A DNA stretch of 32,539 nucleotides from Planctomycetaceae bacterium (GTDB taxonomy: Bacteria > Planctomycetota > Planctomycetia > Pirellulales > Pirellulaceae). Made by a program: the position numbers and the translations under genes. Below the pieces are notes generated by a model. That model ran no database searches and had not been told where the DNA came from. It worked only from the letters and a program-made list of their open reading frames with translations. Shown in pieces: positions 4,840-8,375 of this stretch (positions are counted from its first letter, which is position 1; each line of letters starts with the position of its first letter). The stretch covers positions 1 to 32,539 of the forward strand of contig PKCN01000236.1 in assembly GCA_002862205.1 (NCBI GenBank), read 5' to 3'.

Positions 4840-5113
4840 TTCTGTGGTTGCTAAAGGCCTGTTTGGGATGCCCGGTTCGTCATGACGGTCGCCTCTGCTG
4901 CAGGTAGATGACAGCCTGTGAGGCCGTGTCTCTCATCTGTTCTTGTCAGTCGGTTCTCTCCACGTGTGTGAGGCCAGACTGAGCGGGATGAGTTTGAGCG
5001 ATAACTCCGTGCACGTGTCAGAGAGGGGCCCAGGATGGTACCTTGGGCCTCGGCGTATCTGGCCGCCGGTCGCGGTGGTCATTCCCAGTTTTGAATCACC
5101 ACGAGCAAACTCA

Positions 5114-5620
5114 ATGTCTGATACCAGCGAATCTCAGGAGAATCCTGAAAAGATGCCTGTCATCGCACCGCGTTTGCACCTGTCGCGACGGGGCTTGTGC
5201 ATTTCGCTTGCCCTCATGGTAATCGCGGGGCTATCGGTGTACGCCACGTTTCCAGACAGTGTTGGCGGGCCACCCCTGCCAGTTGAAGTTGAGCTTGCAA
5301 TGGGACCGATGCCAACTGCCGATGGTGCCGGGAGTTTACTGACGGAAACGATTGTCTTGACCAACTTGGCTGAACATCCCATTCCCAAGTTTTCAATCGA
5401 GATAAATGGCCAGTACCTGCTGTTCCGCGAGGCACCTCTTGGAGAGTATCAGCGATTGGAACTGCCTCAGCGTGTTTTTACAGATAAACGCAGCAATCAC
5501 CGATTTAACCCAGTCAAGTATCCTGTTGAGGAAGTGACCCTGACCGGGCAGTTGCCCAGTGGCGCCAGAGGAGTCACTCGATTCATCTTCAAGGATGGTG
5601 TGGTCGTCGATAGCCACTAG
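5114..5620 (+). CDS. Conserved single-pass membrane protein of unknown function
   Basis: The frame is open from 4943, but upstream codons look non-coding, so I place the start at the ATG at 5114. A second ATG at 5153 with AGGAG upstream is an alternative. One transmembrane helix (about residues 24-42, RGLCISLALMVIAGLSVYA) anchors the protein. The rest is an extracytoplasmic beta-rich domain with phrases such as LTNLAEHPIPKFSIEINGQY, NHRFNPVKYPV and LPSGARGVTRF. This resembles a small immunoglobulin-like or DUF11-like fold, but I do not recognise a named family and no catalytic residues stand out. It lies upstream of the S9 peptidase on the same strand, with a hairpin between them. Confidence 0.7.
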   Translation: MSDTSESQENPEKMPVIAPRLHLSRRGLCISLALMVIAGLSVYATFPDSVGGPPLPVEVELAMGPMPTADGAGSLLTETIVLTNLAEHPIPKFSIEINGQYLLFREAPLGEYQRLELPQRVFTDKRSNHRFNPVKYPVEEVTLTGQLPSGARGVTRFIFKDGVVVDSH

Positions 5621-5786: not shown

Positions 5787-8375
5787 ATGGTTGTGTCCGT
5801 TTTGAGTGTCCGATCGCTTCGCCGCTTTTTCAGTTGGTCATTGAGTGGAATGATTCTGCTGTGCTTGATACCTGCGGCGACAGGACAGGGACGTAAGAGC
5901 GATTACGAACGCTCAAAAACATACTCGACGAGGATGCGTAATCATGTTTTTCGTGACCAGGTGAGACCAAACTGGTTCGACGCTAACCGAAAATTCTGGT
6001 ACCGCGTGCAAACTGGCACGGGGTCCTACGAATATGCATTGGTTGATACTGAGATGGGAACACGTGGACCCGTCTTTGATCATGACAGGGTAAGTGCGCT
6101 TCTTTCCGAGGAATTGAAACGCAAGGTTGATATCACAAAACTGAAACTTGCCGGCTTCAGCGTTTCGGCCGATGCGAAAGAGTGCACGTTCCGATACGGT
6201 GGGCAAAGTTGGAGTTTGAGTCTTCCGGGTGGCGATTTGATTTCTGCGGCGAAATCGCGGGGGTCCGGGGAGCGTCAGGGTTTGCCGGCAGAAACCCGTG
6301 TCGTCCGCAGCAACAGTCAGGGTGAGCGAACCCCCATTTGCTTTGAGAATCGACTTGATCGAGTTCTGGATATTTACTGGGTCAGGTCGAATGGTGATCT
6401 AAAGCACTACGGTTCAGTGGAACCCGGACGCGAGCACAAAATTTCAACCTTCGCCGGAGACTCGTGGCTGTTGAAGGATCCCGATGGACGAAATGTTGCT
6501 GTGTTCGTTGCCGATCACGACGACGAATTGGCGGTGATTGATGTGAACACGCGTTCGCCTCAGGCGAAAACCAAGCCCCAGTCCGATGCCCAAGGCAAGG
6601 CGCCGCGTCGATCGCGACGGGCGAGTGCTCCCAATCCCTCTCCCGATCAAAAATGGTCGGTTGCGATCCGCGAGGCCAATCTGTGGATGAAAGATCTGGA
6701 TACGGGGAAGGAACGAAAGCTGACAAATGACGGGAACGCTGACAAAGTTTACCAAGGGCGAGTTTGGTGGTCGCCTGATTCCAATCACTTTGTCGTGATG
6801 CGAATGAGGCCAGGATTGAAACGCAAAATTCATTTGATCGAATCGGCGCCGCGTGATTCAATCCATGCGAAACTGTTGACAATGTCATATGCCAAGCCAG
6901 GTGATCGGATAGATCAACAACGGCCAGTATTGTTTTCAATGGCACAGGACTGGTATCCAAGGTTGGTTGATAACGCTGACTTTTCCAATCCATACAGCAC
7001 TCGTGACTTGGCCTGGAAACGGGATAGTCAATCGTTCTCGTTTCTTCACAATGAACGTGGGCATCAGAGATTGGCGTTGGTTTCTGTTGATGCAGTATCG
7101 GCAAAGGCCAAACTGACGATTGACGAAAGAGCAGATACGTTCATTTGCTATTCAAGCAAATCGTATTTTCGTCGCTTGGAGGATACAAATGAGTTGATCT
7201 GGATGAGCGAACGTACTGGTTGGAACCACCTTTACTTGCTTGATGGTGATACCGGCGCTGTAAAACGACCGTTGACCCAGGGGCATTGGGTGGTTCGAAA
7301 AGTGCAGGGCTTAGATCCCCAGGCTAGAAAAATTGAATTGGAAGTCTCTGGCTTGGATGCTGGGCAGGATCCCTATTACCGACATCTGATTCGGGTCGAC
7401 TTGGATACCGGAGAAATGGTCAGATTGACTGCGGGCAATGGGGATCATACGTGGGAGTATTCACCCGACCGGAAGTACTTGCTGGATCGCTTCTCCCGGG
7501 TTGACATGCCAACCGTGACTGTGCTCCGGGATGCGGTTACTGGAAAAGAAAAATGCCTGGTTGAACGTGGTGACATGAGCGAGCTGGTTTCCGCTGGCTG
7601 GCAGCCACCGGAACGATTCGTTGCCAAGGGCAGGGACGGGAAGACGGATATACATGGCATCATTGTCCGTCCAACCAACTTTGATCCCAACAAGAAGTAT
7701 CCGGTGCTTGAGCAGATTTACGCGGGCCCGCACTCGTCCTTCGTGCCCAAATCCTTTGGATTGCAAACGCAACTCTACTCCATGGCAGAGTTGGGGTTCA
7801 TCGTGGTGAAGATGGACGGTATGGGAACGAGTAACCGTAGCAAGGCATTTCATGATGTTTGTTGGAAGAACCTGGGAGACAGTGGTTTTCCTGATCGCGT
7901 TCAATGGATTGAGGCTGCCGCAAAGGGGCGACCTGAAATGGATCTTCAGCGAGTGGGGATTTGGGGTGGCTCCGCAGGCGGTCAGAGTGCCATGCGAGCT
8001 CTGCTGGCTCATGGAGATTTCTACCATGCGGCTGTGGCTGACTGTGGTTGTCACGACAATCGTGTTGATAAGATCTGGTGGAACGAGCAGTGGATGGGTT
8101 GGCCAATCGGCCCGCATTATGATGAGCAGTCAAATGTCACTCAGGCTCATCGCTTGCAAGGTGATCTGATGCTGATTTGGGGTGAACTGGATCGAAACGT
8201 TGATCCAGCAAGCACCATGCAGGTCGTTGATGCACTGGTCAAGGCAAACAAGGATTTTGTGCAATTGATTGTGCCGGGGGCTGGGCATGGTGCAGCGGGC
8301 CATCCGTATGCACGCCGACGTCAGGCTGATTTCTTTGTCAGGACATTGTGGAAACGCGAACCACGTTCCGAGTGA
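5787..8375 (+). CDS. Secreted S9/DPP-IV-family peptidase with VHL-like beta domain insert
   Basis: Start choice: ATG at 5787 has GGAG eight bases upstream; ATGs at 5739 and 5781 are alternatives. The product is 862 aa. A signal peptide (FFSWSLSGMILLCLIPAATGQ) predicts export. Residues about 40-165 and 290-600 make the DPP-IV N-terminal propeller (WWSPDSNHFVVMR, DLAWKRDSQSFSF, WTYSPD-like strands). The alpha/beta hydrolase domain follows, with Ser729 in GGSAGG, Asp802 in GELDRNV and His834 in GAGHG, a full catalytic triad. Such enzymes remove dipeptides, often after proline. Residues about 182-242 are an insert resembling the VHL beta domain (ICFENR...YWVRSNG...Y...EPG...DSWLLKD), followed by a basic, proline-rich linker (about 255-290). 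It is flanked by unrelated genes and probably transcribed alone. Confidence 0.92.
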   Translation: MVVSVLSVRSLRRFFSWSLSGMILLCLIPAATGQGRKSDYERSKTYSTRMRNHVFRDQVRPNWFDANRKFWYRVQTGTGSYEYALVDTEMGTRGPVFDHDRVSALLSEELKRKVDITKLKLAGFSVSADAKECTFRYGGQSWSLSLPGGDLISAAKSRGSGERQGLPAETRVVRSNSQGERTPICFENRLDRVLDIYWVRSNGDLKHYGSVEPGREHKISTFAGDSWLLKDPDGRNVAVFVADHDDELAVIDVNTRSPQAKTKPQSDAQGKAPRRSRRASAPNPSPDQKWSVAIREANLWMKDLDTGKERKLTNDGNADKVYQGRVWWSPDSNHFVVMRMRPGLKRKIHLIESAPRDSIHAKLLTMSYAKPGDRIDQQRPVLFSMAQDWYPRLVDNADFSNPYSTRDLAWKRDSQSFSFLHNERGHQRLALVSVDAVSAKAKLTIDERADTFICYSSKSYFRRLEDTNELIWMSERTGWNHLYLLDGDTGAVKRPLTQGHWVVRKVQGLDPQARKIELEVSGLDAGQDPYYRHLIRVDLDTGEMVRLTAGNGDHTWEYSPDRKYLLDRFSRVDMPTVTVLRDAVTGKEKCLVERGDMSELVSAGWQPPERFVAKGRDGKTDIHGIIVRPTNFDPNKKYPVLEQIYAGPHSSFVPKSFGLQTQLYSMAELGFIVVKMDGMGTSNRSKAFHDVCWKNLGDSGFPDRVQWIEAAAKGRPEMDLQRVGIWGGSAGGQSAMRALLAHGDFYHAAVADCGCHDNRVDKIWWNEQWMGWPIGPHYDEQSNVTQAHRLQGDLMLIWGELDRNVDPASTMQVVDALVKANKDFVQLIVPGAGHGAAGHPYARRRQADFFVRTLWKREPRSE

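Follow-up and report, generated by a model that had tools for sequence, protein, structure and literature searches.

The window analysed here is a stretch of 32,539 nucleotides from a Planctomycetaceae bacterium (contig PKCN01000236.1). It encodes an S9 peptidase with a VHL domain inserted ahead of its β-propeller (Table 1). Residues are numbered in the 878-residue frame, whereas the original prediction started at a Met 16 residues later. By eye, the N-terminus of this frame is a hydrophobic stretch ending in ATGQG, where relatives carry "aqg" at a frequency of at least 60%. This signal-like appearance suggests that the peptidase is exported. Upstream, a 225-residue frame at 4943-5617 has no Pfam match at 0.001, and no gene of the hydroxyproline (Hyp) route adjoins the peptidase gene in the window.

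Table 1. Features of the S9-VHL peptidase gene (positions in the window)
Feature	Position	Strand	Basis
S9 peptidase ORF with VHL insert and signal-like N-terminus, 878 aa	5739..8375	+	ORF and Pfam; ATG at 5787 is a possible start
VHL β domain, residues 190-267, seven predicted strands	6306..6539	+	PF01847 190-251; AF2 strands 197-267; Foldseek to VHL entries
W214 (human VHL W88)	6378..6380	+	alignment, conservation
Y224 (human VHL Y98)	6408..6410	+	alignment, conservation
T237 (human VHL S111)	6447..6449	+	alignment, conservation
D241 (human VHL H115; His in 87/91 relatives)	6459..6461	+	alignment, conservation
W243 (human VHL W117)	6465..6467	+	alignment, conservation
DPPIV_N β-propeller, residues 266-591	6534..7511	+	PF00930, 5e-43
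Peptidase_S9 catalytic domain, residues 676-865	7764..8333	+	PF00326, 1.3e-44
Catalytic S745, D818, H850	7971-7973, 8190-8192, 8286-8288	+	invariant in 60 aligned rows

The VHL domain and its peptidase

The original prediction had placed a VHL-like β domain at 6330-6512 from an alignment made by eye. A Pfam scan of the 878-residue frame matches PF01847 (VHL) to residues 190-251 with 29.2 bits (9.3e-7), above the curated cut-off of 21. In a phmmer search with window positions 6240-6570 against PDB sequences, human VHL chains were found at 1.2e-5 to 1.1e-4, and the next non-VHL match at 0.33. The phmmer alignment runs without gaps through the pocket and reproduces the predicted pairing of Trp198, Tyr208, Thr221, Asp225 and Trp227 (W214, Y224, T237, D241 and W243 in our numbering) with W88, Y98, S111, H115 and W117. 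A profile of 75 relatives matches VHL in the PDB at 2.7e-10, with one other match at 0.24.

Structure prediction points to the same fold. The AF2 model of the whole protein, computed from a 60-row alignment (pLDDT 84.9, pTM 0.78), contains a seven-stranded unit at residues 197-267, and confidence drops in both linkers that flank it. A model of the domain alone reaches a pLDDT of 78 overall and of 87-95 across residues 21-80 of 100. All 50 Foldseek matches listed for this model are entries containing VHL, as identified at entry level rather than chain by chain (E 3.5e-6 to 2.7e-5, TMq 0.59-0.70). The predicted interval thus covers the core of the domain correctly and stops short of its predicted end near residue 267 (nucleotide 6539). 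Together, the Pfam match, the PDB profile search and the Foldseek matches rule out a coincidental similarity or an ordinary propeller blade, and we regard the insert as almost certainly a VHL homologue. No Pfam hit with E up to 1 corresponds to the pVHL α domain with its elongin C box; the β domain is followed by DPPIV_N.

The catalytic domain (PF00326) and the triad place the enzyme in the S9 prolyl oligopeptidase family. Ser745, Asp818 and His850 show no variation across 60 aligned rows, which makes the enzyme likely to be active; the ends of these 60 rows (alignment A3), like those of the 75 rows of alignment A4, were trimmed to length. The original prediction had further described it as a DPP-IV-type enzyme that cuts after proline. 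In DPP-IV, a double-Glu stretch anchors the N-terminus of the substrate. This stretch is deleted in the window protein, which shows an 11-residue gap opposite it in the alignment to 5yp1, its nearest DPP-IV of solved structure. A short segment of 19-21 residues occupies the site in 107/114 S9-VHL rows, and any Glu pair occurs there in just six of the 114. By eye, the residues that we take to form the human DPP4 pocket also look changed in this alignment. Because the DPP-IV substrate anchor is missing, cleavage after proline is unsupported, and from its sequence the enzyme should not be called a DPP-IV. It shares the propeller and the S9 hydrolase with its Ser-Asp-His triad with bacterial DPP-IV and prolyl tripeptidyl peptidase (S9; 5yp1, 2ecf, 2d5l), and the whole-protein model matches DPP-IV-type enzymes in Foldseek. 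In contrast to these enzymes, to which it is 19-21% identical in the Foldseek alignments, it lacks the double-Glu stretch and carries the VHL insert.

Conservation of the hydroxyproline pocket

According to the available text of PMC9528729, the Hyp site of human VHL consists of Trp88, Tyr98, His110, Ser111, His115 and Trp117, with the hydroxyl group bonded by Ser111 and His115. The available text of PMC6650433 describes Trp88, Tyr98, Ile109, Ser111, His115 and Trp117 as almost invariant across vertebrates and invertebrates. We examined the corresponding columns in 91 S9-VHL domains. A search of the window's family with the full-length window protein supplied 57 of them and the VHL profile 33; the last, a degenerate copy (L190), was recovered in the catalytic-domain survey. 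All five pocket residues (W88, Y98, S/T111, H115 and W117) are kept in 83 of these domains, and the five columns rank 2-6 of 73 by entropy conservation, in agreement with the common pocket that had been proposed. N78 and W117 are invariant; S/T111 is kept in 90/91, Y98 in 89/91 and W88 in 87/91. Position 115 is His in 87 domains, Asp in two, Gln in one and Asn in one. Position 110 is His in 54/91, and position 109 is mostly Gln in these bacterial relatives, unlike the Ile of human VHL. The His and Thr columns are the telling ones, since conservation of the fold alone could also keep Trp and Tyr.

The 38 VHL domains found outside the internal S9 architecture have His (20), Ala (16) or Asn (2) at position 115, and the S9 copies from the same draw keep His115 in 38/39 cases. 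The frequency of Ala in the former group indicates that the fold tolerates loss of this His.

The window copy retains N78, both Trp, Tyr and Thr. With Thr counted for Ser it has four of the five pocket residues; a whole pocket is ruled out by the Asp at position 115. Only its closest congener, L204, shares this Asp, and the congeners L205 and L209 keep His115. The window copy also lacks H110, a position occupied by Ser in several related copies. Replacement of the His in contact with the hydroxyl group of Hyp probably means weaker binding or a shifted specificity. Whether this particular copy would still read Hyp is doubtful judging by its residues, and the same loss makes it one of the worse copies for testing the Hyp idea. 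Compared with the human pVHL β domain (1LM8, 1LQB, 4AWJ), the window domain therefore shares the predicted fold and most of the pocket, and differs in its bacterial origin, its place in a signal-bearing peptidase, the Asp at 115 and the absence of an α-domain match.

Distribution and history of the insert

PF01847 matches were found in 56 of 392 Planctomycetota genomes versus none of 14 control genomes. The 77 listed matches comprise 39 in full S9 frames of this subfamily and 38 elsewhere, including one S9 protein with a C-terminal VHL domain and one split S9 gene. Pfam scans of 18 of these 38 returned four sulfatases, a SASA esterase, an LRR protein, two F5/8C-NPCBM proteins, one protein of ATLF/M90 type, one weak M90 match, a kinase with MORN repeats, the C-terminal S9 case and six proteins with VHL alone; within this set, VHL fell short of E 0.001 in L065:3205-4956 and L071 and below the cut-off in L067.

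Several of these proteins deserve individual mention. The kinase (L064:2933-4654) combines MORN repeats with a C-terminal VHL domain, and L090:2777-4675 joins VHL and an ATLF/M90-type metallopeptidase match in one frame. The window genome (C75) has a second VHL match at the C-terminus of a sulfatase (L073:2-1114, 5' end cut by the contig), with Ala at position 115. Two genomes of one genus (G117 and G148) hold three and six VHL matches (L043, L048, L051, L052, L054, L067). Where scanned, these copies are C-terminal in unrelated proteins (esterase, LRR, sulfatase, F5/8C, S9) and resemble a shared attachment or sorting module. The S9 relative among them, L048:2212-3588, has its N-terminus cut by the contig end, so that it may hold an internal copy as well.

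A scan for the pocket motif QHT[FY]xGH[VRT]W in one genome per species of 84,980 species yielded 307 relatives, of which 80 were kept. They are labelled Planctomycetota, Verrucomicrobiota and Armatimonadota (Chthonomonadales). A few loci (L119, L126, L130, L140 and others) bear the labels Akkermansia, Klebsiella or Proteobacteria and may be misnamed MAGs. In 79 of the 80, phmmer matched the S9 part; the remaining ORF is cut by a contig end. As this set was picked by the pocket motif, it was left out of the pocket counts.

With the catalytic domain as query, 60 of the 392 Planctomycetota genomes yielded the S9 subfamily at E ≤ 1e-60. The VHL domain is present in some state in 44 of them, a partial, a degenerate, a split and a C-terminal copy included. 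By eye, a linker takes its place in 13, and the other three were left unassigned. In the window's own family, 90/119 genomes have the S9 gene; the 70 that were read divide into 57 with the domain and 13 without, and the 20 left out include several with cut or split frames. A FastTree phylogeny of the propeller and catalytic parts (115 rows) places 24 relatives without the domain, in keeping with its original description as an insert. This tree omits L185, L186, L193, L198, L201 and L202 by choice, and L199 and L200, which have no row-cutting motif. On this tree, presence of the domain changes at least eight times, compared with an average of 22 when labels are shuffled; three changes are required even when only well-supported branches count. 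The insert is always found in the linker ahead of the propeller in aligned S9 rows, and insert-less relatives are 58-72% identical over the catalytic domain (L199 and L200, 46-47%). The VHL insert is a discrete, old module that has been gained or lost several times.

Hydroxyproline-route genes and a proposed role of the insert

We clustered the 316 flanking ORFs of the 80 loci, taken from at most 4 kb per side. There is no dominant partner gene among them, and the largest clusters cover five loci. The top 12 clusters include Xaa-Pro aminopeptidase-like proteins (five loci, four of them scanned), D-amino-acid dehydrogenases or FAD oxidases (three) and 4-hydroxyproline epimerase-like proteins (three); in the remaining clusters of the top 12 we saw no link to proline. 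The available text of PMC4113996 presents epimerase, DAAO, DHDPS and aldehyde dehydrogenase as a set forming the Hyp route. On another contig, the window genome has DHDPS-like, 4-Hyp epimerase-like (384 bits versus a cut-off of 442) and D-amino-acid dehydrogenase genes in a row.

The epimerase-like gene adjoins the S9-VHL gene in three of the 80 loci. The order is DHDPS-like, epimerase, S9-VHL in L147 and epimerase, S9-VHL in L162; in both loci an aldehyde dehydrogenase-like frame lies downstream in the opposite orientation, as checked by Pfam in L162. In L109 it is S9-VHL, epimerase, FAD oxidase, the oxidase being just 26% identical to the dehydrogenase in the Hyp operon of the window genome. 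A D-amino-acid dehydrogenase gene follows S9-VHL in L154 and precedes it in L182, and both enzymes are 58-59% identical to the one beside the epimerase of the window genome. In all, Hyp-route genes adjoin five of the 80 loci. For the epimerase-like proteins, 4-Hyp epimerase models are the best match at 382-440 bits, below the curated cut-offs of 442-450; the neighbours of S9-VHL genes score 412-440 bits versus 450. Since L147 and L162 are close kin (87%), the three adjacencies count as two independent cases, with 0.054 expected and P(≥2) = 0.0014 for an epimerase that was chosen post hoc among the neighbour clusters.

At genome level, with genomes taken as independent and kinship ignored here and in the other association tests, the epimerase family (PF05544, called at E < 1e-20) occurs in 67/77 family genomes with an S9 gene not shown to be insert-less, 10/13 shown to be insert-less and 11/29 without the S9 gene. 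The frequency in insert-less genomes indicates that the association follows the peptidase and not the VHL domain. Among the 75 genomes that contain the named loci, some of which also belong to the family set, 44 have PF05544. A draw of 183 Verrucomicrobiota genomes (centre left out) showed no epimerase association (3/16 versus 12/167, p 0.13). The prolyl hydroxylase family PF13640 has no hit in the window genome. It is mildly enriched with S9-VHL (15/44 versus 48/348 genomes, uncorrected p 0.0016), so that substrates may also be endogenous.

On balance, we consider it somewhat probable from these sequence comparisons that the insert is a bacterial VHL β domain kept to read hydroxyproline, or Hyp/Pro-rich peptides, and that it tethers a secreted peptidase to its substrate. 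The neighbouring genes help this reading without proving it. The original link to hydroxyproline thus persists through pocket conservation and a few Hyp-catabolic neighbours, while its proline-cleavage part is unsupported. In the mechanism we propose, the peptidase would be exported, and the VHL domain, suspended from the linker that precedes the propeller, would hold 4-hydroxyproline substrates such as collagen- or HRGP-like proteins from other organisms. The S9 serine peptidase would then trim the held substrates, and the freed peptides would be taken up and burned via the epimerase, D-Hyp dehydrogenase and deaminase route.

The C-terminal VHL domains of sulfatases, a SASA esterase, LRR, F5/8C and other proteins, the occurrence of up to six matches per genome and the Ala at position 115 in 16 of the 38 domains outside S9 would also suit a protein-protein or surface-attachment module whose pocket holds proline or another ligand instead of Hyp. 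We consider this unlikely, as it leaves unexplained both the His/Thr/Tyr/Trp set of 83/91 S9 copies and the Hyp-route neighbours. The fixed place of the insert could also point to an action in cis, with the domain capping or bracing the propeller and its pocket occupied by a residue of the same polypeptide. This arrangement seems quite improbable, given that insert-less relatives retain the catalytic-domain identities noted above and that the modelled confidence dips in both linkers suggest a mobile tether. For the copy in the window's genus there is a further reading, compatible with Hyp recognition by its relatives, in which the domain is a relaxed remnant that binds nothing specific. The Asp that replaces H115 in both the window copy and L204, and the Ser at position 110 in several relatives, speak for it; the retention of N78, two Trp, Tyr and Thr, and of His115 in L205 and L209, speaks against it, and we hold it to be possible, if on the unlikely side.

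Returning to Hyp recognition as the favoured role, there is a published parallel for the combination of functions. A Colwellia collagen-utilisation cluster (PMC7883544) likewise brings together protein-degrading and Hyp-route genes (epimerase, D-Hyp dehydrogenase, KGSA dehydrogenase, aminopeptidase); in contrast to the S9-VHL loci it contains an M9 collagenase, and its available description includes no VHL domain. In a search of the open-licence literature for VHL in bacteria, including Planctomycetota and Verrucomicrobiota, PMC9002001 is the one match listed that concerns bacterial VHL domains. It reports a hypothetical protein of Litorilituus sediminis that, like the S9-VHL peptidases, is bacterial, secreted and matched by the Pfam VHL model. 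The word peptidase is absent from the main text of that paper, its available parts make no pocket comparison, and the protein is interpreted there as a tumour suppressor. Both the collagen/Hyp gene cluster and the secreted VHL protein come from Colwelliaceae (PMC7883544, PMC9002001).

More speculatively, bacteria of at least three phyla, by their labels, might use VHL as a Hyp reader on secreted peptidases that feed Hyp catabolism; this use might predate HIF signalling, and the eukaryotic oxygen-sensing VHL might descend from such a reader. We advance this scenario only tentatively. Animal oxygen sensing and VHL-based degrader drugs both depend centrally on the recognition of hydroxyproline by VHL. 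A bacterial family with a conserved pocket, unconnected with ubiquitin or HIF, would allow the origin of this recognition to be tested, and small bacterial VHL domains are possible hydroxyproline affinity reagents. For the bacteria themselves, the VHL homology, the pocket kept in most relatives and the few Hyp-catabolic neighbours suggest that the S9-VHL enzyme may be steered to collagen-like proteins, which would name a new way of targeting peptidases to such substrates.
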